Positions 23,912-42,121 of a DNA stretch of 64,000 nt are shown piece by piece. Under the pieces are notes generated by a model. That model saw only the letters and a list, made by a program, of their open reading frames with translations, had not been told where the DNA came from and did not search any database. The DNA lies in the NCBI GenBank assembly GCA_010093485.1, contig MU001509.1:94824-158823 (forward strand), read 5' to 3'. Every line of letters starts with the position of its first letter. Within the stretch, counting starts at the first letter, position 1. The translations under genes were made by a program, and so were the position numbers. Origin of the DNA: Karstenula rhodostoma CBS 690.94 (lineage: Eukaryota > Ascomycota > Dothideomycetes > Pleosporales > Didymosphaeriaceae).

Positions 23912-24030
23912 ACATACAACAGCGGGGATTCGCTGCTGGTCACCCACGCAACTACTGATCCGCCGGTACACTGCTTATATATGGCTGAGCGGACGGGAAG
24001 CCTAGTTTTCAGTGTCCTATGGTCGTATGT
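23912..24030 (-). rRNA. 5S ribosomal RNA gene, divergent copy
   Basis: On the minus strand the 119-nt sequence begins ACATACGACCATAGG and ends GCTGTTGTATGT followed by a T run (Pol III terminator). Hallmarks of fungal 5S rRNA are present: GGCTTCCCGTCCGCTCAGCC, the GTGGGTGACCAGCAGCGAAT segment, and pairing of the two ends (helix I). The second helix differs from the common fungal sequence, but ACACTG and CAGTGT remain exact complements, so changes on the two sides compensate. Dispersed 5S genes outside the rDNA array are usual in filamentous ascomycetes. It may be functional or a recent pseudogene; the intact helices and terminator favour a gene that was under selection. Confidence 0.83.
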
Positions 24031-25310
24031 GAAAGGTAAGGGAAATTATCATACTATATACCCCACCACCGCATAAGTATAACCATCCAACAGGAACTCA
24101 ACCAGGAATGTTAGTATACTACTTATATAGACTCTGTAAGGACCAGCCTCAACATTGTAATCTGAAATGTACCACCGAAGCGGCAGCATGCTCTTCTCTA
24201 CCGCACGAGATCCTTAAGGCCCTTAATTGACCCTAACCGCCCCTTACCAGCTACTGAAACCCTCCCCTATCTCCCCTGCTGGCTGTTTGTTGTAACTATA
24301 GTCGCTCGTCCTCGTATTATGGGTCAACTAGATCTCATTGACCATGCTGGTAGGGGCACAAACATGCTGGTAAATGAGATGAATTTAGAGAAGCTCAAGG
24401 AAGTATTAAACTCCTGCTATGCGGCGTATAAGAGCATCACCAGCCATTGGATTGAGTTAGTAAGCCAGTGTTCTATCAAGGTGTATCGCTTACAATAACA
24501 GATTTAATCAGGAGTCTGTTGGGCTGGGTAACCCGGGGAGCCGGCTCTGTAGAGGAGCGGCTCGTTACTGAGGTTTGGGTGACGATTGCGACAACAGACT
24601 TAAAGGAGAGACACCCACGAAGAATAGAGTTGAACGTTATTTTTCCATCTAAAGAACCACCATCTCCTAAGCATATAAAGTTATTCTTTACATAGCTCAT
24701 CCGTATATCAGTCTATTTGCGACATGGAAGATGAACACTATATCGATCCCAGTCAACGACCTTTTATATCTTCCCAACTCCTATATCATTCAACTTAATA
24801 TCATCCTCGCTGATCTTTACAATGGCTGCAACAGGCCTTTCGTACCCTTAGGGTACAGTCAACAGCTCAAGTTCATCATTTCTCAGCAAATCTACGGTGC
24901 AGAAATCTCTCGTCGTTGGGATAGAATACGGGCCCTTCTTTCTTCGTGGACTCCCTCTGTACTTGGACATCCCATGGTAAGATGACTGTTGACTGCTCTT
25001 AAAAGCCTAGCGTTGGCGGGGCGAGGCATACAAAGAGGAAGGGACAATATGAAACTTCCATATCTTAGCGAGAGAAGGCATGGAGCTGCAAATCATAGAG
25101 ATACTAGCTTCGACGACTATAGACGTCTTAGGTATCAATAATGTAATCCACAATACAACGCACTTGCACAGTGGTACAATTTAACCGGCTCGTGTATCCC
25201 GATGGGCTTTGTAGAGCTTAACGTGATAGTACATAACAATCGCATCAGCTATGATAGCACTGTAACTCGTGTATCAGTGTATATTCCTCCATATCCCATC
25301 AGGAAAACTC

Positions 25311-26010
25311 ACATTGACCCTGTCATAGATATATACAACACGCCAGCCTTTCTCTTTCGATTTATGTTCAGCTTTGACACGATCGGGGTGGGTATGTAGA
25401 AAATCAGCAAGTCAACTACCAGGTTAACTACGCCGATAACCAATGAGACGAGCACATTTCCTTCCGAGTTCTTTTCATTCACTGCCGTTCCCTAAGCCTT
25501 TCCGATAGGAGGAGCCAATTGCGCCGCAAGAATAAACGCAGTACAGAATAGCGGAATAGAAAAGACCACGGCGGCGATGATTTGCCAACGAAAATGGGTG
25601 ATGTGACCGAAGAAGTCCCAGTAGAGAGTCAAAATATATATTTTCCCCAGGAACAAAGTCAGAGGGCTTAGCAAGGCCTCACAAAAGATAATCTAGATTC
25701 TGTGAGATGGGAATACATTAAACTTAGAGAGTAGGGTGCTACCTCTTGGGCCCGTGCTGATGTGATAAAGCTGATCAAAATATAGCAAGCGTCTCTGCTA
25801 AATTTAGGCATGATCACTACCAGTAACGCAGCATTGCCAGCGCTTATGATGAAGGTGACAACTAGGAACCCTGGTACAGCTGTCAATACCAATCTCCAAA
25901 GAATATTTGCGTTAGAAAATTCTTTACCGTCTCCGAATTTCCATTTACTCTTTCTGCCAATCTTCGACCAGACTCGCAAAGCCACAAGACAGTCAAGACA
26001 GGCATCAGTA
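25311..26010 (-). pseudogene. Relic of a fungal rhodopsin/SAT4-type integral membrane protein
   Basis: Read on the minus strand, pieces of a seven-TM fungal membrane protein follow in the correct order: VALRVWSKIGRKSKWKFGDG, then after a 66-nt stretch with intron-like ends LLSPLTLFLGKIYILTLYW, then FFGHITHFRWQIIAAVVFS, then after an in-frame TAG (25494-25492) VVDLLIFYIPTPIVSKLNIN and KRKAGVLYISMTGS. The TAG is one G-to-A step from TGG. The 5' end seems out of frame with the preceding hydrophobic segment. The order of family motifs (aromatic FRW, Asp in TM6, PIPxxxxLxLxxxxKxGV-like loop) supports the SAT4/rhodopsin family. No complete frame can be made, so I call it a relic. Confidence 0.65.
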
Positions 26011-26089
26011 TTGCCACCACTACTATTGTGTGCGTCAAGAGTTCAGATTGTTGCGTCACCATGCTTGTTTAACTTCCACACGCCTACTC

Positions 26090-27215
26090 TTGAGACCATA
26101 CTTGGGTCATTCAGTATTTCTGCCAATGGGTCTGCTCGCATTATGCAAAGACAAGACGAGCACGAGAAACAAGATTGTGTCAAGGCGAAGACCTTGTTTG
26201 AGGAAATCCACGATATGCAAGTCAAACAAACTTCCGGATCAGACCTTACTGCGACGACACAACACGCGACTTCATATCTTGCCACTAGGCTTTCAAGCAG
26301 CTACTTGAGCAAGGTTATGGTCTCTCAAAATGGTGTAATGTGTATTCCGTTGAAATACTGGACAAGAGAACTTCAAGTGCTTGCTATGCAAGATGTGTTC
26401 CTTGGCCCCGCGATGGAATTGATGAGCCCTGGGTTGCCTTCGATTCTATTCAAATACTCTAAAGTCAGCTGGCAGACATAGTACCATATGCCCAAAGCCT
26501 TTAGGACGGGTAACCATCGCTACGCCAAATACATCCAAGATTCTTTTCGACGGTACTTGTCTATGAGTGCCGAGGAACGCAGTGCCGCATGTAGTGTAGA
26601 TGGCTGGGCTAGTCTTTGAAGGGCTGCAGCTTGAAATAAAATGATCAAAGTTATTTTATGCATTTATACTACTGGGGGTATGTTTCCAATTTACTACTTG
26701 AATCCGATCAGCTGGTTGAGCGACAAAAGCTAATCGACGATTAGAATCAGCATGAATCCTGCAAATCTCGTATCTTGGCTTTTAGCCCATATATTATATA
26801 TTGAGAGTCACATGGAACTCATTCGAGCCGAGACAGATTCAGCCTTCAAAGCAGACGGAACTCTCGACACCTATTATCTTGTCAACTCATGTCCGCGTCT
26901 CGAATCAGTATGGTACGAGGTCCTTCGACTTTACAATTCCGTTACTACCGTTTGTTATGTTACTAAGGATACTATACCCCACGATTTTCATCTCAAAAAA
27001 AGTCACGCTGTTCTGTTTTCTGCAAGACAAATGGCGTTTCACGACCCACGTCTAGGCGAAAACCCGCTCCAGTTTGACTCAACAAGATTTTTTCAGATCC
27101 AAAGAGGAAGTACCTAAGCAGCCATCGACACTTTGGCGGGGGGGAATATGTATGTTGTGGTCGCCATATCACCGAGCATGACCACGCTGCTTTTGAGAAG
27201 ATAGTGTACGGTTGG
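26090..27215 (+). pseudogene. Relic of a cytochrome P450 gene
   Basis: Fragments of one P450 occur in order on the plus strand: a middle part ending LQVLAMQDVFLGPAMELMSP and a tail broken by TAG at 26479-26481; YAKYIQDSFRRYLSMSAEER in another segment near 26520; the K-helix region SVWYEVLRLYNSVTTVCYVT at about 26910; then, in a shifted frame, the haem loop FGGGEYVCCGRHITE at 27132-27176. The N-terminal anchor and I-helix are not found. The pattern resembles fungal P450s of the CYP7/8-like group. Several stops and a frame change show that it is not functional. It is unrelated in sequence to the intact P450 at 7546. Confidence 0.72.
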
Positions 27216-27449
27216 CCTTTCCGCAGAAATTCCCAGGCGTCTATGAGAACGAGCCTAGCATTGGAGTGCTATTGAGTAACGATGACATCTATTTGCAATT
27301 TGAGGAACGCTCGTAGGGCTGTTACTGAGGGCCATATGTCAATATCGCTCAGAATTACCTAGGGCTTGCTCTTATACCCATCATACCCTCATCTGTACGT
27401 TGTAACCACCCGAGAACGTGACAATGACTTTCTTTCACTCTTGTAGTAG

Positions 27450-28340
27450 AATCAATGTGATGTATTGTGCAGAGTCGAGCACCCTGTAGAGCACCCTGTC
27501 GAGCACCCTGTCGAGCTATATGGCCGAAGATATTGGAGAGAGACGTGAACGCAGGAGGCCGTGCATGACATAGTTGAGAACTGACAGCCGGATTGCGCCA
27601 CCCATAATGTGGAACTGAGTTATCGCTCCATAGCAACTGTGTTGTCCTGCTCCGATACAGAGAACAGCGTCATGAGTGTCAAGAGCGAGATGTTGCCACA
27701 TCCAGAGCCCGCAATAATTTGGTATCCATATTGCGCTTTGTTGACTGTTGGGGATGCAGGGAGAGTACCGTGTAGAGAGAATCCGACCATCTGCAGGCAG
27801 GATACTACCAGTATAAGGTAGATTGGTGGCCCGCCTCTCTTTGCAATAACCGCGGTTATGATGGATGTGATGGAAGCCAGTGTATGACATGAGTCGGACA
27901 CCGGCTGCTATCGGCGAAAGGCCATGCACAATTTGGAATCTTTGGGGGGAGCTGGAAGACTACAGAAACCCAGAAAATACCCAGATAAAGTGCATTGCCG
28001 TCTTTGAAGTCAGTGATACGTGACGGGACAGAATTTGATGGTGTGCGGGTGTGCGAGAAGCTACTCATATGGTCATTCCAAGCCAGATTCGGCTCGTGAA
28101 GAGGCGCCATGTAAACCCGGGCTCGGTGATCGAGCGACAGACTGTGACATGTCGCTCCCATAATTTAAATAGAGCCCATAACACAGCTGAGATGCAAAGA
28201 AGAGCGATGAAAAAGGCGTCTTTCCGGCCAAAGGTTAGTCAGGCTTCTTCCAGAGCAGCAACAAGGGCCAGAGTAGTAATAATCAAGAGGAAGCTGCCCG
28301 GAATATCGACACATGCAATGGAGACTACTGAAATACCAGG
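27450..28340 (-). pseudogene. Relic of a DHA2-type MFS transporter (C-terminal half)
   Basis: On the minus strand, MFS pieces appear in order across frames: a TM with ITTLALVAALEEA interrupted by TGA and continuing LTFGRKDAFFIALLCISAVL; LPQRFQIVHGLSPIAAGVR preceded by a stop; VIAKRGGPPIYLILVVSCLQ; TLPASPTVNKAQYGYQIIAG; ISLLTLMTLFSVSEQDNTVA; and GLLRSRLSPISSAI. The SPxxAGxR and QYGYQIIAGxG motifs are typical of the fungal aflT/DHA2 group. Stops and at least two frame changes show decay; the visible stops are compatible with C-to-T or G-to-A changes. A 12-bp tandem repeat (GAGCACCCTGTC, 27477-27515) lies in its 3' end. Confidence 0.75.
27477..27515. repeat. 12-bp tandem repeat, about three copies
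   Basis: GAGCACCCTGT(A/C) is repeated three times without gaps in the 3' part of the MFS relic. It probably arose by slippage after the gene lost function. Confidence 0.7.
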
Positions 28341-28718
28341 GCGTGACTCTCAAGTTCACCAGAGCTACTCCGAACAAAAGCTACATCATGTTCTAATAGA
28401 GCAGAAGTGCACAATGACCGAGTAGTCAGCAGATAGGTTGCACGTGCATATCTTATTTTTCTACTGTCATCAAACATGTTTTCTCTGAAAATAGTCTTTC
28501 GATATTGTCAACCGACATTACTGCCAAAGCCGACAGCAGATATCCACATCCACCAAACAGTCAATCATCACAGGATAGTGGGTTTCAAAATTTAGACCCT
28601 GGTAGATATCTTGTATTATTACTGTCGTGGGAGCGTATCATTAAAACCTAGATAGTATGTACATATAGATGCGACGGACTATAAGTATTAGCCGAATCCC
28701 TTATTCCCAAATATCCCC

Positions 28719-29904
28719 TCAATCCAGTGGTACCCCATGATCCTCTACGAGCTCTCCGCCAATCTCATGGTAGGCATATGTACCGACGGGTATGCTATTC
28801 AGGGACGTTTGTTTGAGCAGGTCTTCGAATCCCACAATCGTCCAAACGCCCAATGCAGCTAAAACGGGCAGGCACTCAAGCGTGTAGAAGAATATCTCGT
28901 TGTGCATCAGTACCAGCAGGTGTCCCGTGAAAATTCCCGAGAGCTCAATGAGACGGTACGCTACTCTCGTGAATATGGCTGCAAGGCTGAAGATCAAGGA
29001 GTAGATCGTCGAGCGGCATTTGTTCGACAACTGACTGGAGACATAGGTCGCTTTTGCTCTTAAATCGACAACCTCGTTGTCTCTCAATTTCTTGTGGAGT
29101 AGGATGGCTATGATGGACACATAAACCACGAGGACTTCTTGAACACCGATGCCGACGAGATAAAATTTGAGCCCAATTATGGCCGTGCTGGAGCCGCTGC
29201 CTGATGGAGACGATCTATGCTTCGGAGCGATGAGTACACTGGCGACGAGTTGCTCAATTGCAAGAAAAGGAATCGTGACGAGAAGTACCCGTGAGAGAAC
29301 GCCTCCGGTCACACCGAGAAGTTTCTCATCTTGGCGGTAAGCTGTAATCAGTCTTTGAAGGACAGTGCAATCAAGCGCGAATATCACTGCGAACCAAGGC
29401 GAATTAGCACATAGGTGGAAAGAAAAAGACATGACGGGAGTCGAGACGAGCTAGAGTAGTTGAAGGGACGGACTCACATATCGGGCAAACCAAGACCAGT
29501 GTGTCAGAAAAAGCCACAAACTCCGGCACTTGCTGATATATCGTACCGAATGCACGCAGGATGTAGGCTGCCAAGAGGCACGTCGCGACAAGAGCCCCGA
29601 TCCAAGGCAGCGAGAGGCTATGTCCCCTTGACGGTCCTCTTTCGATTCGCGGCTGGTGACGGCGAGAGACAGAGCGGGCTATCAGTGACGAGAACCCGAG
29701 TAGTACCAAGACTGCAGCGGCGCAAAAGACCAAGGCCGCAACGAAGGATGGGTAATAAGGCCGGGAAATGTAGCCGCAGGTTCCAGGAGGTACCCAACCA
29801 TTGGCATCGGGCTTCACTGTCGTTGTAGGACAATCGTGTGATGGTGACGGATCGTCTGGAGCTGAACGGGACGAGACCAGCGGTAGACGAGCGAATGAAA
29901 TCAT
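28719..29904 (-). CDS. RTA1-like multi-pass membrane protein
   Basis: Predicted 7-TM protein of 364 residues of the RTA1/lipid-translocating exporter family, whose members confer resistance to toxic lipids or drugs. Exon 1 is 29904-29478 and exon 2 is 29386-28719; the 91-nt intron has GTGAGT and CAG ends. After a Ser/Pro-rich leader and CGYISRPYYPSFVAALVF the protein has seven hydrophobic segments. The family core is IFTRVAYRLIELSGIFTGHL followed by HNEIFFYTLECLPVLAALG, corresponding to the RTA1 pattern with Arg, Glu and a following E..FY. I chose Met at 29904 because the frame further upstream lacks family features. It sits at the left edge of the RiPP region, so a role in transport or self-protection is possible. 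Placement in the cluster is inference. Confidence 0.8.
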
Positions 29905-30403
29905 GGCCACTCGATCAGAAAGACCATAGCATGGTGGTAGATGCGTAATAACCAAATATCGGGCAATTGGAGAAGGTCCAGAGAGCAGCGTATTATCAAC
30001 GAGGCGGCCGAAGAGGGAATGGAGAATGTCACTGTGCAACAAGTGCACGCTGCAGTCCCACAGCTCTGGCAACACTAGCCAAGTTCGATAGCCCCCATGG
30101 ATGATGATCCTTCGGCTAGATGCGGGGTAGAGCGTTGAGGCCCTTACCAAGATCTTGGAAACAGTGCTAAGCATCCTACGACAAAGATCGTCACTCCTCG
30201 CGCGAGAGTTGATAGAGCTTGACAATCCAATTGGGAAGGTAGGCATCGAACAACCTTAAGAGAGCTTATCAGCATCTTTTCATACACGATGGCCTTCAGC
30301 CTAAGTCTTCATTGGTCACTAAATCCATTTGATCCCAGTTCCAGGGGTTTACAATTGAAAAGTAGTACATTCGTACAGTCATACAGTCGCGCGATTGCTT
30401 GCG
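29905..30403. other. Intergenic, no gene seen
   Basis: 499 bp upstream of the RTA1-like gene and downstream of the first UstYa gene, holding only an open-frame extension of the former that lacks similarity. Confidence 0.5.
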
Positions 30404-31426
30404 TTATTCTCCGCACCTAGCAGGTGGTGTTCGTGGGCCAATGTAGATACGCCCTAAATAAAAGTCAGGATCAGATTGTTAGCAAAGGGGGATGTTCTCA
30501 CCATCGGGCGTAGTAATCAACTTCTCTTCCTCCGAAAAGGAGTGTTGTCGCGTCCAATCCTGAACAGCATCCCAGTTGACGCACGCCGAATCTACAGTGT
30601 TGTTTGCAAATGCAACACCAGGCTTATCAGGGTTCCAAGCAATAGCTCTGACACCGAGGTCCGGCTGGCAAATAAGCCTTTTCCGTAGAGTCTCGATGCA
30701 GTGATCTATATGTGGTGGGAAATAGTGCGCCTCGTCCATATCATAGTGCTCCGTATGGTTGGCTGTCGGATCATGGGGGTTTGAACAGCGTACTCCCGCT
30801 ATTTGATGTCGAATGGAATCCAGACAATGGAGATGGTGATAGACGTTCATGGAGACCCAGACGTCGCCAGAATCGTCATTTAGAGGGATGCTTTCAAGGT
30901 CTAAATCGTCTAAAGATGTTGACGGGACGCGTATTGAGTACCCTAGATATATGACTTGATTAGCAATCCAGGCCTGTGACACGGAGGTCAACCTACTTAC
31001 CATCCATGAGCTTCATCCATCGTTCTGTCGTTTCTTGAGTTGGAAACCCCTGATATGGGCTCGTGTGACCATGGCCCTCAAGTTCGTGATGTGTTAGAAT
31101 CAATGGCCGTGAAGATATGGCCTCGAAGGCCGGTGCTTATTGGTAATCTCTGTCAGCCTGAACACTACTTGAGGGCGACTAATAGGAAATGCTCCAGACA
31201 TACAAGGCACCATCGAGTACTGCGCGAGTTGGTCGCTAGCTCCCTGTGGACGTTCATTGCTAAGGAACAATCCAACAAACACTCCAGAAGTAAACAAAAC
31301 CACGTTGATTGCCAGATATCGAATGTTCAATGCGCCGCTCCAGCCAGTCGTATCAAGGTTTCCGTGTGACAAGACCTCTTCGCCATCTTCTTCGCTTCGA
31401 AGTTGGGTATACTTTTGGTCCGGCAT
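30404..31426 (-). CDS. UstYa-type oxidase 1 (DUF3328 family)
   Basis: Predicted membrane-anchored oxidase of 282 residues of the family that makes side-chain ring closures in ustiloxin-type RiPPs. Exons are 31426-31204, 31135-31001, 30942-30502 and 30453-30404. One TM segment lies at about residues 31-55, followed by SPAFEAISSRP and SPYQGFPTQETTERWMKLMD. The two diagnostic HxxHC motifs are YHHLHCLDSIR and PHIDHCIETLR; their His/Cys residues are thought to bind the metal. The last intron (48 nt, GTGAGA donor, GCTAAC branch, TTTATTTAG acceptor) gives a tail ending PPARCGE. If it is retained, the protein stops at 30479 with ENIPLC. It is divergent from RiPP precursor 1 with a 574-bp shared promoter region, which strongly suggests joint action. 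Confidence 0.9.
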
Positions 31427-32000: not shown

Positions 32001-32590
32001 ATGCGTGTCTCTACTGTATCCGCTATTATCGGGCTCACTGCCGGCTTTGCCAGCGCAGCTCCGGTGCAGCCCAAAGAAGTCCAGAACCGCGATGCCGATC
32101 CCCAGTGGTACGACATCACCTACGTTGACAAGGTGAAGCGCGAGGATGCCGACAAGAAGCGTGAAGCTGAGGCCCAGTGGTACGGTAAGTGTCTCTTCTC
32201 GGGCACCACATCTGCTAAATTTGAATGCTCACCGCTTCAATAGATATCACTTACGTCGATAAGCGCGCTGAGGAGGAAAAGAAGCGCAAGGCCGACCCTC
32301 AGTGGTACGATATCACTTATGTTGACAAGCGCACCGAGGAGGAGAAGCGCAAGGCCGACCCCCAGTGGTACGACATTACCTACGTCGACAAGCGCTCTGA
32401 GGAGGAGAAGAAGCGTCAGTGGTACGATATTACTTATGTCGACAAGCGTGCGGAAGAAGAGAAGAAACGCAAGGCCGACCCTCAATGGTACGACATCACC
32501 TATGTCGACAAGCGTGCTGAAGAGGAGAAGAAGCGCAAGGCCGACCCTCAATGGTATGACATTACCTACGTTGACAAGCGCGCTGAATAG
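32001..32590 (+). CDS. RiPP precursor 1: secreted Kex2-processed repeat protein with seven QWYDITYVDK units
   Basis: Precursor of 176 residues for a ribosomally made, modified peptide. Exon 1 is 32001-32184, an intron spans 32185-32243, and exon 2 is 32244-32590. A signal peptide (about residues 1-19, ending FASA-AP) leads into the repeats. QWYDITYVDK occurs seven times, with codons for its Gln starting at 32103, 32175, 32300, 32363, 32417, 32483 and 32549. Units are typically 22 residues: a KADP lead, the core, KR, then an acidic spacer (A/S/T)EEEKKR. Dibasic KR sites on both sides are expected targets of the Golgi protease Kex2. Unit 1 ends DKVKR, unit 4 lacks one Lys, and unit 5 lacks KADP. 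The intron (phase 1) splits the second core between Tyr and Asp. Trp and two Tyr residues in each core are suitable for UstYa oxidative ring closure. The final cyclic product is unknown. Confidence 0.93.
32290..32590 (+). repeat. Tandem coding repeat of precursor 1, period about 66 bp
   Basis: Core codons recur at spacings of 63, 54, 66 and 66 bp in exon 2. The 54-bp step is an exact 12-bp (four-codon) shortening and the 63-bp step a one-codon loss. Synonymous differences between copies (CAG/CAA, GAC/GAT, ACT/ACC) show that the amino acids are kept while the DNA drifts. Confidence 0.9.
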
Positions 32591-33159: not shown

Positions 33160-34149
33160 ATGGATCCGCCGATTGAGCGGATGAGCTTCGAAGATTCGGA
33201 AAGTAGTCAGGACAACCACTCTCGTTCGTTGGAAGGGTTGTCGCATGATGGAGACGCCGATACAGAGAAGTTCCTTTTATTGGGCAAAGACAGTGGAAGC
33301 GTTCACAAAGCGTCTTGGAGAAGTTCCTGGTCCTGGTCAACCAGAACCATGGTTTTCGTGACGATTCTAAATGTCTTCTTGTTGTTGGTATCGATAGTGA
33401 TACTATCAATGTCCACGAAGGGTTCTTTTTCTGATCAGGACTACTGGAGAGCTACGTCCTACTATTGTGAGGCCGCCCTCATATGTCGATCCAATCTTGC
33501 CACTGACCCGATTCTAGCCCCAGTATTTGACCGCTTCAACATCCCGAAGCTCACGCAAGTTACAAACGGCACATTCTGGAACACGGAACCTCCCTCTATT
33601 TGGCGCGCCCGCACAGGCGCCGAAGCAGATGCAGCATGGGAATCTATCGGAAGCAACATTGCACCCATCATAATCAATTCCGTCGAGGTTCTTGCGCTCG
33701 GTAAAGACCCCTCCGTGGCCGTGAAAGCACCTCCCGAACTCAACCTCGGCTCAGACGCGTACATCGCAGGTATGGACGTCTTCCACCACCTACACTGCCT
33801 GGACAAGCTCCGCCGAGAAATCTCATACAAGCACTATCACGAGGCTGAGGAAGGACCGAGTCCAGGGTCGGAGTTGCATGAAGCACATATCAACCACTGT
33901 CTTGATGTGCTTGCGCAGGCATTGAAGTGTACCGGCAGTGTTGATATGGTTACTTTCAATTGGGTTGAGGGGCATCGGATGCCACAGCCGGACTTCAACA
34001 ACAAGAAGGTTTGTCGCGATTTCGAAGCGCTGAGGGAGTGGACTGTGGAGAATGGGGTCGATAGCGATGGATTTTTCAAGGCTGCAGACAAGCCGCCGCC
34101 AGGTGCCGTCATCGTGCCTGAATTCCACCCTCATAATCATGGCACATAA
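33160..34149 (+). CDS. UstYa-type oxidase 2 (DUF3328 family)
   Basis: Second UstYa homologue, 312 residues. Exon 1 is 33160-33466 and exon 2 is 33518-34149. The 51-nt intron (GTGAGG...CTAG) has no in-frame stop, so an unspliced reading is open, but splicing restores the family pattern TSYYSPVFDRFNIPKLTQ. A TM segment covers about residues 64-84 (MVFVTILNVFLLLVSIVIL). TNGTFW follows. The two HxxHC motifs are FHHLHCLDKLR and AHINHCLDVLAQ. The tail is longer than in UstYa 1 and ends HPHNHGT. It lies 569 bp downstream of precursor 1 on the same strand. Expected to act on the secreted core peptide in the secretory pathway, forming a ring or an oxidised side chain. Confidence 0.92.
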   Translation: MDPPIERMSFEDSESSQDNHSRSLEGLSHDGDADTEKFLLLGKDSGSVHKASWRSSWSWSTRTMVFVTILNVFLLLVSIVILSMSTKGSFSDQDYWRATSYYCEAALICRSNLATDPILAPVFDRFNIPKLTQVTNGTFWNTEPPSIWRARTGAEADAAWESIGSNIAPIIINSVEVLALGKDPSVAVKAPPELNLGSDAYIAGMDVFHHLHCLDKLRREISYKHYHEAEEGPSPGSELHEAHINHCLDVLAQALKCTGSVDMVTFNWVEGHRMPQPDFNNKKVCRDFEALREWTVENGVDSDGFFKAADKPPPGAVIVPEFHPHNHGT

Positions 34150-36248: not shown

Positions 36249-38109
36249 TCACCGTTTGAAGCGCAACATCCTGTTAAACCCTCTCTGCTCAATCTCTCTT
36301 CGCGCCGCCCCGTCCACAAACTCACCGCCATTCCCATCTCTCGACATACCGTCGCCAAACACTCTCAACAACACCACCATCATCCCAGCAGCAAGAATAC
36401 TCCCACAAAGGATCCCAATCATGACAAGGTTACTTTTGCGGTACTTATGCGGACCCTTTGCATCCTCAGGCCATCCTGTGTACAAGGCGTATGTCGTGAG
36501 GATGGAGCCGAGGTTGCCCAGTCCGGAGACGAGTGCGGATGCGGCGGCGACACCGACTTCGCCGTGACGGGGCTGGAAGATTTCGTTCGTCCAGGTCATA
36601 CAGATGGGCACCGTGGGACCCAGACCGAAGCCGACCTGGTCATAATGGTCAGCGATCTGTTGTAGAAGAGTACTGGGATGAGGTTCATACGAGAAGGAGA
36701 CCTCCGTAGCGAGTCCACGATTTCGCGCCGCCTCCAAAGGTGGTCATGAGGAGGCCTCCAATCTGGATGAGCACTGCGAAGGAGAAGAAACCAGCGCGGT
36801 GGTGGTGGAATCGGTCTGAAAGGGGGGTGAAGATCAGGATAGCGATGAGATCCATCTAAGCCGTATTAGTTCTTGTCCGAAAATCAGAACTCTTGCAGAG
36901 GGAACGTACGATCCAGATAGGAGCGGTCAGCAGCGAGAGGTCAATGCCGGAAAGATCAGGATTGATACCACGGATGATGACTGAAGCATACGCTTGGGTT
37001 CCAATGCCGACACCGACGACGCCGAAGTACATAACAACCAATGGCCATAACCGCCAGTCGATGACAACATGCCAGAGATCCTTCATTGTCCACACCTTGC
37101 GGCGGTACACGCGGGTCAGATCTTCGTAATGGATCCGTGCATCCTCGCCTGACAGTGCAGGTTTGCTGTCGGGGATGAATTTGCGCCAGGATGGTTTCTC
37201 GCGAACTTCACCCGGAGGTAGAGGCCGATCTGGGAGCCACCAGAGCAGCGAGATACCAACAAGAGTGCCCACGATTCCGTAGAGGAGAAACATCCATTGA
37301 AAGCCTACGAGGCCGCCCAGGCCGTCCATCTTCTGGAAGCCGGCAGAAACAAGGCCGACGACAGCGGCAGAAACTTGAGAAGCCGTGAAGTAGCGGCCAA
37401 TCCGCTTGCCAGTCCTTGAAGGCGGGTAGAAGAGCGTGAGGTAGTACGACATGCCAGGCCACATGCCTGCAATAACTATACCCAGCAAGAGTCGCAGGAG
37501 GCTAGACTAGTGTCAGCAACAGTGTGTGGAGTGTGGCAGAAGAAGGCTCACTAGAAGCTCCACGCAGCTTTCATACCAGTCAAGCCAATGCCAATGATGC
37601 CCACTCCTGTGACGATTCTACTCATCCACACATGCGGACTCAATTTGGACATGACTAAGTTGGAGGGCATATCGAAGATGACGTAGCAGACGTAGAACAG
37701 GGCTAAACCAGTCGACACTTGCTTGGGGCCCAGATTGAGCTCTGAAGCGAGGTCGTGGCCTTGGGCGATGTTCATCGTTTGCGCCAGGCCGACGTTGGAT
37801 CGGATGGCAGAGCACATGAAGTAGAGGATCCAGAAGGCTGAGTCGTGTTAGGGTTCGGATGGCGGGGCTAGTTTAGAAGAGCAGTACCTGGCAAGATGCG
37901 TCGATCGAGCTTACTACTTGTTGTTAGGCGTCGTACAGAGAAGAGCAGCACTTCACACACCTGTACACCTGCTCAATGCGGTCAATATCCACTGCCTCGG
38001 ACCCTTGGTCGACATGTTGCTCCTCTATATCGTCTGGCTTGCGTCTAGGCCGTGCCGACTCGGCCATGTTTTTATTTTCGGGACCCCGCCCAGTTGCCTC
38101 TACGGACAT
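36249..38109 (-). CDS. MFS transporter, anion:cation symporter (Dal5/TNA1-like) family
   Basis: Plasma-membrane permease of 534 residues, 12 TM segments. Exons are 38109-37961, 37913-37888, 37837-37552, 37501-36910, 36855-36691 and 36635-36249; the second is only 26 nt, and all junctions keep frame. After a hydrophilic N-tail comes KLDRRILPAFWILYFMCSAI, the standard ACS-family opening, then GLALFYVCYVIFDMPSNLVM, GIVIAGMWPGMSYYLTLFYP and GKRIGRYFTASQ. The central loop and WRLWPLVVMYFGVVGVGIGT follow. The C-terminal half includes FGLGPTVPICMTWTNEI. ACS members import vitamins, allantoate, nicotinate or similar organic anions. In fungal clusters they also occur as product or precursor carriers. 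The first in-frame ATG is 38109; a GTG-led extension upstream is not used. Confidence 0.92.
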
Positions 38110-39274: not shown

Positions 39275-40152
39275 TCAGAGGAAGCGCACATACACGATGA
39301 AATAAGGCGTCACATCCACATGGCACATCATGTCTTGCCTGAGGACATCGATGCAATGGTCCAGATGCGTGCGGATCAGATTATCGGAGAGCCCATGGAA
39401 GTGCTCGGGCAGTGCGCCGTCGCGCGCCATATAGTGGTCCTTGTATGACCACATGCGCAGCCAGTCCTGATGGATCCTGTCAGAGCAGTTCTTTTACACA
39501 GAGCGGGAGAGGGAGAAGTACCAAGCAATGCAGTTGGTGCATCCCCCACAGCAAAGCCGCGCCGCCGCCCTTTGGCGTGCGCACGATGGTGGGGTCTGCA
39601 GTGCGGTTCATGCGCGGCCACGCCGACTCGGGAACGTCGAATTCGCGGTCTGGGTCGATCTTAGCTCCGGGCGTTTCGAGGCGGGGAGATGGATCTTGAC
39701 GAGCTTACAGTCCCAGAGCTTCAGCCATTGCTCGTCGAGCTCCGGCGTCGGCTTCCCGCGGTAGTCGGATGCTTGGCGGAAAGTGCCAGTGTAGTCTTCT
39801 TCGTGGTACTCTACGGCTTCGAATGCGGGTGCTGGACTTTCGTTAGGAGCAACGTCACGGCTTAGGTATAGGATCGAGACTTACACCATGTGTAGAGTTG
39901 CTTTACGCATTGTGAATCCGTCACAGGGCGCATGTATGCCACCATGACAAGAACGATGGAGGACAAAAATAACAATACATTTGCGATGGTTGCGATGGAG
40001 AAGCAGTAGCTGAAACGATTTGCCGGCGCGGGTCGCGTTGAATTCAACAGTGTCTCTGTTGATTCTGTGGAAGCGTCGGTTTCAATTTTGGCGTAGACCG
40101 CCTGCCCACCGGGCGTGCCCCATCGGCCTCTGATCCAGTCTCGGACAGCCAT
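39275..40152 (-). pseudogene. UstYa-type oxidase 3 (DUF3328), apparently frameshifted
   Basis: Third UstYa homologue, about 242 codons. Exon blocks on the minus strand are 40152-39885, 39832-39709, 39664-39522 and 39466-39275. One TM segment (about residues 52-74) follows a soluble head. Exon 2 begins SPAFEAVEYHEEDYTG and continues, in the next frame, with DYRGKPTPELDEQWLKLWD, so the two halves of a normal UstYa segment are joined by an extra base, most simply at the AAAA run 39780-39783. The HxxHC motifs MHQLHCL and HLDHCIDVLRQ are intact. The first intron to exon boundaries fit consensus. If the extra base is an assembly error the gene is functional; if real, it is a recent pseudogene. The similar SPAFEA start in UstYa 1 suggests common origin. 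Confidence 0.7.
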
Positions 40153-41665
40153 GTCGTTGAAAGAAACCTCAAAGACAGAGCGAAGACAATCTCAAAAGAT
40201 CCAGTCCCGCTCAATTGCGCTCGTCCCACCCAACATGACGGAACACCACGCCCTAGGTACCGAAATCCATCGAAACTCCACCTCGCCACTCTAGCAACTC
40301 CCCGAACATGGCTTGGTGTACCCTAGTCGTCTCACTAGAGTTTACCGCCCGCCGGGCTTACGCTGACAGCCTACTTCCAGGATTAAGGTACTACGTGTAG
40401 ATTGCGTATCTACGCCGTAAACAGCAGGTGGCTATGATAGCTTGGAGTGTTTACCCACTCGCGTACGTGGCATGGAGCAATGAAGTGCGCCCGGGGTGTC
40501 ACCGCGGTCTTGGCATTGAGGTTTCGGGAGGCTAGCACGCGCTGATGGGGACGCGATAGTTGGGGTGTGCTGCGTGCGATAGTCTACGATAGTCTACGAT
40601 AGGTGAGGGCGGCACAAGGGGGCTGTGTTAGATGCGATTTGGGAGGGAAGGGAATGAGTGTCTGTGATGTCCTTCTTAAAGCAGGCAAGGTCTTTTTTCA
40701 AATTGGAGTTACTTCGTGAAAGGAGTATGAAGGTTTTTAGTAAAATAGCCCGCATTCAGTGTCTTGCCAGATATTAGGCTATGTTTGTATGACTGGTGCG
40801 CATTAAGCTGTAGGTACTGTGGTCCGTCAGACGTTATTGCATGCAGAAGCGCCAGGAACGTATACTAGCTGCTTGCAGACTAGCGTCAGCTTGACAAAAG
40901 CTTCTGCTTGCTTCGCTTCCAGACTACCTCTCTACACATTGAAGAGCAACCTCTAAATCCAGGCCGCAATGACGAGATCAACATTACAGATTGTGTGTAT
41001 CGGAAAGTTGTTTTTAGCAAATCACTGCTAGTATCGCCCCAAGTGGCCCACAATGACCATGTCCCGATAAGTCCCTTACACGATCGCTTCGAAGAGCTTA
41101 TGTCAATAAACGGCACCATTTCCCTTCTGGGGATGAGCGTATAATACTTGAAGCCGCTATTGACATTGTAGGATCATGTATGACTGAGCTTGCATGTCAC
41201 CGGGCGCAGGGTGGCCAACTGATCGCCTCTCCCCCATGATACCGCCCACCTATCGGAAGCAAAAATGACAACAATCCAGATAGATAGATATGCACAGCAA
41301 CATTCGACCTGCTCTTTGGGGTTATGTTCCGAGCACTGGATGTCACAGCCGCTATCATCGAGCCGGCAAGCTAACCCGCGTGGTCTCACCATCGCACTAG
41401 TGTTTGAATCTATGAACGAAGGATCCCCCGAGGATAGAGAACCTTGCGGGATAACCAGGACCTTGTAGGCAGGTGCATGCTACATATATCGGTTGCAGCG
41501 GATGTCACAGTGCGCGGCAGGCAAACCGTAGTGAGCTTCTGGTAGGCATAAAGGCATCGTATCTGCACACATAAAGTATCTCGTATCTGAACAATCACTC
41601 ACTACTCCGCCGCAGACACACACAGTCGCTCCTAGCTTTATCTTCTCGTCCCACGCCCCTCCACA
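40153..41665. other. Intergenic upstream of RiPP precursor 2
   Basis: 1.51 kb between divergent starts of UstYa 3 and precursor 2. It includes a short tandem CGATAGTCTA repeat (40577-40603, period 10). Frames of 60-78 codons at 40886-41598 show no domain. Confidence 0.5.
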
Positions 41666-42121
41666 ATGAAGTTCTTCGTAACTGTCCTGGCTGGAGCCGC
41701 GGCTCTGAGCACGGCTTTTGCCGCCCCGATCGAAGGTACGAATCTACATGAACTGTAATGGTTACTGGAGAACTGACGCTGGACAGCTACGGAGGCCAAC
41801 AAGCCCAGCGTTCCTCCGGTCCGAATTCGGCCCAGCATCAAGTCGGTGGGAGTTTATGCAACCGACGACGGCGAGGCTACCAAGCGCCTCCCTCCGATCC
41901 GAATTCGGCCCAGCATCAAGTCGGTGGGAGTTTATGCAACCGATGACGGCGAGGCTACCAAGCGCCTCCCTCCGATCCGAATTCGGCCCAGCATCAAGTC
42001 GGTGGGAGTTTATGCAACCGACGATGGCGAGGCCACCAAGCGCTCACCCCCGGTTAACGTTAAGCCAAATATCAAGTCGGTGGGCATATACGCTGTGGAC
42101 GAGCCCACCGCCGAAGATTAG
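41666..42121 (+). CDS. RiPP precursor 2: secreted Kex2-processed repeat protein with four SVGxYA units
   Basis: Precursor of 134 residues, unrelated in core to precursor 1. Exon 1 is 41666-41735, a 51-nt intron (GTACGA...ACAG) spans 41736-41786, and exon 2 is 41787-42121. The signal peptide MKFFVTVLAGAAALSTAFA ends before API. Three units end SIKSVGVYATDDGEATKR, preceded by PPVRIRP or PPIRIRP; each KR is a Kex2 site. The fourth, C-terminal unit is diverged (PPVNVKPNIKSVGIYAVDEP) and lacks KR, yet keeps IKSVG(V/I)YA(T/V)D, which points to that stretch as the functional core. Each core has one Tyr. UstYa 3 lies 1.5 kb away in divergent orientation. The protein could also be a processed secreted peptide without cyclisation; the neighbouring oxidases favour a RiPP. 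Confidence 0.88.
41821..42054 (+). repeat. Three near-identical 78-bp tandem repeats in precursor 2
   Basis: Units start with CCGAATTCGGCCCAGC at 41821, 41899 and 41977, exactly 78 bp (26 codons) apart. They differ by only a few synonymous or conservative bases, far less than the fourth unit. This suggests recent duplication or gene-conversion homogenisation. Confidence 0.95.

Follow-up and report, generated by a model that had tools for sequence, protein, structure and literature searches.

A seven-copy QWYDITYVDK repeat precursor between two UstYa genes is a candidate RiPP locus in Karstenula rhodostoma

We describe a gene of Karstenula rhodostoma CBS 690.94, here called precursor A, which encodes seven identical copies of the core QWYDITYVDK and lies between two UstYa genes (YA and YB). 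Precursor A is probably the precursor of a Kex2-processed, UstYa-modified RiPP of the broad dikaritin or asperipin kind. The original prediction of an UstYa-type RiPP precursor, made from one stretch of DNA, is thus supported by the architecture of the gene, by two flanking UstYa genes bearing HxxHC motifs and by the apparent linkage of YA relatives to similar precursors elsewhere. All window coordinates refer to that stretch of 64,000 nucleotides (contig MU001509.1, positions 94,824 to 158,823); coordinates with a contig prefix (C4, C14 and so on) refer to other positions in the genome or to the contig carrying precursor A (C18).

Results

Gene structure and repeats of precursor A

The two exons of precursor A (Table 1), 32001-32184 and 32244-32590, join to encode 176 amino acids. 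The product begins with MRVSTVSAIIGLTAGFASAAPVQPKEVQNR, followed by the seven identical cores. The signal peptide is plausible and the protein looks secreted, both as judged by eye, 13 KR dipeptides border the units and acidic stretches of the AEEEKKR type form the spacers. The signal peptide, the KR cleavage sites around the units, the acidic spacers and the seven copies had all been predicted and are borne out, the seven copies exactly so after splicing. Positions 32001-32590 also stand as a repeat-precursor gene, but not as one continuous reading frame: six of the seven copies are uninterrupted in the genomic DNA and copy 2 is split by a GT...AG intron.

Among the seven cores 8 of 30 nucleotide positions differ, all of them third positions and all synonymous. 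Under a simple model that ignores gene conversion, eight independent random changes would all be silent with a probability between 3e-7 and 1e-5, according to the transition bias assumed. Since the variation among the cores is entirely silent, the copies look held constant at the protein level. Slippage can generate repeats, yet a neutral repeat array or a misread frame without a secreted product is hardly credible given purely synonymous core variation and conserved relatives in other genera.

The lysine of QWYDITYVDK is mostly the first half of a Kex2 KR site, and the mature peptide is therefore probably QWYDITYVD, or QWYDITYVDKx where KxKR comes next, as it does after copy 1 of precursor A and after several units in relatives.

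Profile searches with NCBIfam gave no match to precursor A or to the UstYa relatives P0011 and P0058. The Pfam profile Abhydrolase_2 matched residues 18-52 of precursor A (E 1e-5, over the cut-off) and, among the relatives, P0001 over the cut-off and P0006 and P0004 below it. We judged this a chance match amplified by the repeats, because a 39-residue piece with a single unit scored 15 bits (E 0.018) and P0002, P0003, P0005, P0007 and P0009 had no match. A PDB search with the same 39-residue piece found nothing. The match on residues 18-52 is a possible lead on the evolutionary origin of the core.

Table 1. Features of the window and of further loci in the genome
Feature	Coordinates	Strand	Description
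RTA1-like membrane protein gene	28719..30246 (rough limits)	-	PF04479 on 28719-29432; candidate cluster member
YA, upstream UstYa gene	30404..31426	-	282 aa; exons 31426-31204, 31135-31001, 30942-30502, 30453-30404; PF11807
Precursor A, exon 1	32001..32184	+	Signal peptide, pro-segment APVQPKEVQNR, core copy 1, start of copy 2
Precursor A, intron	32185..32243	+	59 nt, GTAAGT...AATAG, inside core copy 2
Precursor A, exon 2	32244..32590	+	Remainder of copy 2, copies 3-7, KR sites, AEEEKKR-type spacers
YB, downstream UstYa gene	33160..34149	+	312 aa; exons 33160-33466, 33518-34149; PF11807
MFS transporter gene	36249..37900 (rough limits)	-	PF07690 on 36856-37464; possible exporter, candidate cluster member
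YC, third UstYa gene	39276..40153	-	236 aa; HQLHC and HLDHC; tentative four-exon model
Precursor B, second Kex2-type repeat protein	41666..42121	+	134 aa; intron 41736-41786
L043, repeat precursor	C4:1250.7-1250.9 kb		Four (A)TYAPLVYTGG/VGG cores with three KRDAEAD sites between; ~1.4 kb from UstYa matches
L042, repeat precursor	C14:664.0-664.3 kb		QAYARGDGAPLGFKIN and QAYTRVDGSPLGFKIN, the second after KRDAEA; ~1.1 kb from UstYa matches
L002, repeat precursor beside UstYa			IFxSDGALQV...DASSYA
L006, repeat precursor beside UstYa			DQAFVNVAYYGLK
L008, repeat precursor beside UstYa			GESIWT...
L051, repeat precursor beside UstYa			KDSDDVWLW
L044, pheromone-like	C14:1512.7 kb		YSLPGQPIG, YRLPGQPIG with KREAEAEAGW or KRDAEAEAEAGW
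L038, pheromone-like	C15:1553.3 kb		RHRLPGQPIG and NCRFPGMPCS

Relatives and conservation of the core

A search of 5.8 billion proteins with precursor A returned ten matches at E ≤ 1 (best E 6e-58), which include proteins of the Pleosporales Kalmusia sp. (P0006) and Periconia macrospinosa (P0007). A similar leader is present in P0001, P0002, P0003, P0005, P0006, P0007 and P0008. The cores of the relatives read QWYDLTYVDK, QFYDVSYIDK, QFYDISYIDK, QWYDLVYVDK, QWYDISYIDK and WYDITYIDK, with a few single variants, and the frame across the family is [W/F]YD[I/L/V][T/S/V]Y[V/I]DK.

Our core pattern matched 32 units in 8 of the 11 proteins (precursor A and its ten relatives) and none in P0008-P0010. 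Tyr3, Asp4, Tyr7, Asp9 and Lys10 were invariant in all 32 units, these being residues that the pattern itself demanded, while position 2 was Trp in 21, Phe in 10 and Val in one; position 5 was I, L or V among the relatives. Core-like units outside this set break the frame, namely QWF at the broken end of P0008 (Tyr3 to Phe), QWYDITYMYV in P0010, QWYAWG in P0006 and units cut by introns. The breaks in P0006, P0008 and P0010 may be gene-model faults or real change.

Judged from read-through translations (...[WF]YG in place of ...[WF]YD), an intron lies at the same codon as in precursor A in P0001, P0002, P0003, P0005 and P0009. Two successive units of P0009 are each interrupted at this core codon, which suggests that repeat units were multiplied together with their intron.

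The flanking UstYa genes

The start codons of YA (31426, minus strand) and YB (33160, plus strand) lie 574 and 569 bp from precursor A. The predicted distances were right, and both genes match the UstYa profile PF11807 (DUF3328), with E 1.6e-22 for the main exon of YA and E 1.4e-49 for the YB reading frame. YA carries the motifs HHLHC and HIDHC and, by eye, an N-terminal hydrophobic segment; YB carries HHLHC and HINHC. The YA model is one of four splice models and is borne out by its relative P0058, its end coordinate 30404 being computed from the model length, and the YB intron was deduced by comparison with the YB relative P0011. P0058 and P0011 share 27% identity over 236 positions. YB is 80% identical to a listed protein of Paraphaeosphaeria minitans, a fungus of the Didymosphaeriaceae (Pleosporales) to which the host is probably related, and a search for a solved structure related to YB by sequence found none.

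We compared the contigs of the precursor relatives with those of 24 YA relatives and 47 YB relatives (E cut-offs 1e-20 and 1e-15). Precursor and YA relatives were found on contigs of equal size in three records, P0007/P0062 (53,507; Periconia macrospinosa), P0004/P0067 (39,246) and P0001/P0073 (6,733), a linkage that is inferred from equal contig sizes rather than from coordinates and concerns 3 of the 10 precursor relatives. None of the ten contigs coincides with one in the YB list (among the 47 proteins listed). The contig of the Kalmusia precursor (1,530,639) coincides with neither list among the matches listed, and six of the other precursor contigs are shorter than 7 kb. Relatives of YA and YB occur together on contigs of equal size in Bimuria (P0058/P0019; 625,023) and Periconia digitata (P0059/P0014; 3,687,698). 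Close relatives (at least 63% identity) make up 19 of the 24 listed for YA, and the named organisms among these 19 we take to be Pleosporales; YB relatives extend to Colletotrichum and Aspergillus (P0044 of Aspergillus flavus among them).

Because of the apparent contig sharing with the precursor in three other records, YA appears to be the steady and better supported partner of precursor A, while the role of YB is less settled. A variant that overlaps with our preferred explanation is that YA alone modifies the core and that YB is a mere neighbour with a separate, widespread function. This variant would fit the coincidence of precursor contigs with the YA list only, as well as the wide spread of YB relatives beside the close set around YA. 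We regard it as possible but doubtful, as relatives of both genes apparently occur on shared contigs in Bimuria and Periconia digitata, at an unstated distance, and the relative lists give just the longest contig for each cluster.

Processing signals

Six of the seven cores of precursor A are preceded by residues that parse fully into X-Ala/X-Pro dipeptides, in the style of the Ste13-type signals of alpha-pheromone precursors (DADP, EAEA and, four times, KADP). Copy 5 has no such residues and abuts KR, and copy 1 is preceded by NR instead of KR. All dipeptides end before the same Gln. For precursor A and its relatives together, 21 of 32 extensions parse wholly into X-Ala/X-Pro (one of the 21 being empty) and 11 do not, 8 of which read KSDP and 3 of which are in P0007. 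Among candidate proteases the genome holds one match of the Kex2 type (P_proprotein) and three of the Ste13/DPP type (DPPIV_N), which include those at C13:847778 and C1:1255758; the third of them is weak and has two stops.

A survey describes the Ste13 signature as generally dedicated to alpha-pheromones in Ascomycota, and in its account the signature is not predicted for the ustiloxin and phomopsin precursors and is absent from the epichloecyclin precursor GigA (PMC6339444), in all of which respects precursor A differs. Precursor A combines the Ste13 signature with UstYa neighbours. This pairing is not without precedent, because 17 of 76 KEPs (Kex2-processed repeat precursors) homologous to basidiomycete pheromone-like KEPs are reported to have DUF3328 neighbours (PMC7329392). 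We judge it an unusual trait in an otherwise known precursor architecture. A 2019 review described the proteases responsible for removing the core-flanking sequences of ustiloxin as unknown (PMC6514808).

UstYa-plus-repeat loci across the genome

The genome contains at least 59 UstYa matches, which form 42 loci with a merging distance of 1 kb and 39 with one of 5 kb. The pattern KR[ED]A[ED]A was found 23 times at 16 loci (4 in the reversed control), and an UstYa match lies no more than 5 kb away at three of these loci: precursor A, C4:1250.9 kb and C14:664.2 kb (P 0.0004, or 0.008 without the precursor A locus, under a rough model of uniform placement). On visual inspection, roughly one in two of the remaining loci is an ordinary gene or a frame without meaning.

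Using a scan for repeats plus KR sites, a crude filter that missed the pheromone-like loci L038 and L044, repeat precursors were found at 4 of 15 sampled UstYa loci outside the window (L002, L006, L008 and L051; flanks of ~1.5-2.1 kb). The sample comprised the next best-scoring loci (L002-L008) and a chosen set (L048-L055), the two loci found by motif being excluded. The same scan found none at 18 loci taken for other reasons (L011-L028). Counting the precursor A locus, the genome has at least eight loci that pair UstYa with a repeat precursor. The repeated parts of L008 and L051 contain Trp and no Tyr, which is of interest for UstYa chemistry on residues other than Tyr.

Further repeat proteins were seen away from UstYa genes. 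The gene at C17:310.7-311.9 kb (L041) looks secreted and has many AVRGSN units between KR/RR sites, many of them after dipeptides of the EAEA/DAEA type. L031 (C5:1187.7 kb) and L040 (C16:1222 kb) are KR-punctuated repeat proteins with units of the GPPS...WGK type, and no UstYa match was found within 140 kb of them or on the contig.

A second candidate locus lies in the window itself. Precursor B has three near-identical units of 78 nt (96% matches), resembling LPPIRIRPSIKSVGVYATDDGEATKR, and one diverged unit, with IKSVGVYA in the units. YC faces it at ~1.5 kb; its model scored highest, by a simple measure, among 76 splice combinations, with UstYa profile matches at C18:134125-134289 and 134503-134691. 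YC probably serves precursor B rather than precursor A, and the two form a separate candidate RiPP locus. Elsewhere in the window, positions 24000-29000 have a GC content of ~44-49% compared with 51-60% at 20-24 kb, and a P450 match confined to 26734-27114, among short broken frames, is perhaps a decayed P450 gene.

Discussion

Is the peptide a pheromone?

The processing signals raise the alternative that the secreted peptide is a linear signal resembling a pheromone; the UstYa genes would then either be neighbours from a different pathway or introduce a light modification such as hydroxylation. In addition to the alpha-pheromone-style dipeptides of precursor A, such KEPs are called hormone candidates in the survey cited above (PMC6339444), basidiomycete KEP peptides with Ste13 motifs were reported as minimally modified (PMC9769878) and the AVRGSN-repeat gene at C17:311 kb carries the signature with no UstYa match within 270 kb. 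However, two UstYa genes directly adjoin precursor A, YA is apparently co-located with the precursor on three other contigs and annotated mating factors and pheromones are reported almost never to have DUF3328 neighbours, with three exceptions (PMC7329392). Moreover, UstYa matches are found less than 2 kb from two further repeat precursors with the KR[ED]A[ED]A motif, and the Ste13 signature thus does not preclude UstYa modification. We therefore consider a linear signal unlikely compared with an UstYa-modified product.

That precursor A encodes the mating alpha-pheromone of the lineage is far more improbable still. Like precursors of the MF-alpha type it places X-Ala/X-Pro dipeptides between KR sites and the repeats, the genome has one Ste2-type receptor locus, and P0006 shows a weak MF_alpha_N match (E 0.044). 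The published Pleosporales pheromone motif PYGxPxG has no strict match in the genome (control 1), and its looser form gave fewer matches (18) than the reversed control (37), which leaves room for such a reading. Against it, the MF_alpha profile has no match to precursor A at E ≤ 1, and better candidates with LPGQPIG units are present at C14:1512 kb and C15:1553 kb, both read from single frames rather than from gene models and far from UstYa matches. The Cys-type pheromone pattern C-x3-GQ-x-C gave 227 matches compared with 144 in the control, and five regions picked among the matches listed held no repeat precursor. We rejected the mating-pheromone reading, since the core fits no GQP, Cys-pair or PYGxPxG type and two DUF3328 genes are adjacent.

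Comparison with known systems

The preferred reading of precursor A as an UstYa-modified RiPP precursor places it among the KEPs with DUF3328 neighbours described by Umemura 2020, whose architecture is exactly that of precursor A; DUF3328 genes are reported there to be enriched beside KEP genes, with such a neighbour for 1758 of 7878 KEPs and the highest DUF3328 count at the next gene (PMC7329392). Kex2-separated repeats and adjacent UstYa genes with two HxxHC motifs each make the locus dikaritin-like in a broad sense. In the narrow sense of Ding et al. (summarised in PMC12048977), a dikaritin cluster has five genes, among them a tyrosinase, a methyltransferase and a transporter or S41 peptidase. 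The predicted ustiloxin/dikaritin type thus survives as precursor plus DUF3328 but fails in the narrow sense: the tyrosinase profile has 33 matches in the genome and none on contig C18, and a classic ustiloxin-type pathway with tyrosinase was rejected. No methyltransferase exceeded the Pfam cut-off in the 30 window reading frames scanned, a scan that multi-exon genes could escape, and a sub-threshold methyltransferase match (E 0.0065) coincides with the YA exon itself. As candidate transporters, the MFS (36.9-37.5 kb) and RTA1-like (28.7-29.4 kb) genes lie in the vicinity.

As C18 has no tyrosinase match, the pathway would resemble that of asperipin-2a from Aspergillus flavus rather than that of ustiloxin. 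Asperipin-2a likewise derives from a repeat precursor with Kex2 layout, has an UstYa homologue (AprY) and is described with a four-gene cluster without tyrosinase. The original prediction held that the core is unlike known dikaritin cores, and this is so for its residues but not for its spacing: WYDITY and FYDVSY share their aromatic-Tyr-x3-Tyr spacing with the asperipin-2a core FYYTGY (PMC6514808), a likeness of core spacing and not of core identity. The two systems differ in that the residues are not the same, the precursor A core is longer and there are two UstYa genes rather than one; an isoflavone-reductase-like gene, present for asperipin-2a, was not recognised in the 30 window reading frames scanned.

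The ustiloxin and phomopsin precursors share with precursor A the signal peptide, repeats, KR sites and DUF3328 genes, and Y3-D4-I5 has the Y-x-I spacing of YAIG, YVIG and YVIP (PMC7329392). They differ from it in that the precursor A contig has no tyrosinase match and position 5 varies between I, L and V. Both the asperipin-2a and the Y-x-I spacing likenesses are leads from short motifs. The core of GigA is presumably unrelated to QWYDITYVDK. GigA is likewise a secreted repeat precursor and is reported to yield nonapeptides with a Tyr-based ring (PMC9233826, PMC6514808). Precursors of the MF-alpha type differ from precursor A, which has UstYa neighbours and neither a GQP- nor a Cys-type core.

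Searches of literature main text for WYDITYV, QWYDITY and WYDITY, and for YDITYVDK, YDLTYVDK, YDISYIDK, YDVSYIDK, YDITYIDK and YDLVYVDK, found none; supplementary KEP tables may list the core. We know of no product of the QWYDITYVDK core family.

Proposed biosynthesis

In the biosynthesis that we propose, precursor A would be a secreted KEP that Kex2 cuts after KR in the secretory pathway. A Kex1-type carboxypeptidase would trim off the basic residues, and removal of the X-Ala/X-Pro dipeptides (EAEA, KADP, DADP) would fall to a Ste13-type dipeptidyl aminopeptidase. Together these cuts would release as many as seven peptides QWYDITYVD(K), all beginning with the same Gln, which may be converted to pyroglutamate. 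YA as the conserved partner, perhaps together with YB, would oxidise the core, probably as a membrane-anchored protein with its HxxHC domains in the lumen. These steps, their order and the crosslink are all predicted, and the likeliest product would be a Tyr-O to C-beta ether macrocycle via Tyr3 and/or Tyr7, formed without a tyrosinase. The predicted [M+H]+ values are 1202.536 for QWYDITYVD and 1330.631 when K is retained, 1200.521 or 1328.616 after loss of 2 H and 1198.505 or 1326.600 after loss of 4 H, with pyroglutamate forms lighter by 17.027.

Of the Tyr or Trp crosslink originally envisaged, the Tyr version appears the likelier because Trp2 is often replaced and Tyr hardly ever, both Tyr residues being present in all 32 units matched by a pattern that asked for them; a Trp-specific crosslink as a conserved feature was rejected, position 2 being Trp in just 21 of 32. 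UstYa proteins are also reported to hydroxylate or chlorinate and to occur in non-RiPP clusters (PMC12048977), and POI2 of Neurospora is an ustiloxin-type KEP needed for sexual development, as cited in PMC7329392. Toxins are known among relatives.

Conclusion

This work names a conserved core family and predicts for it a dedicated enzyme (YA) and residues of note (Tyr3 and Tyr7). A tentative and rather improbable extension is that the QWYDITYVDK, (A)TYAPLVYTGG and AYTRVDGSPLGFKIN families all comprise UstYa-cyclised peptides that would mature via the alpha-pheromone route (Kex2, Kex1 and Ste13) to the same N-terminus and would act as crosslinked extracellular signals rather than toxins. The Ste13 signature, generally a pheromone marker in Ascomycota according to the survey (PMC6339444), adjoins UstYa genes at three loci of this genome, which makes the maturation of UstYa-type RiPPs by pheromone proteases a testable question. 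With precursor A, a sound new candidate joins a large class of peptide natural products from fungi, most of which await characterisation.
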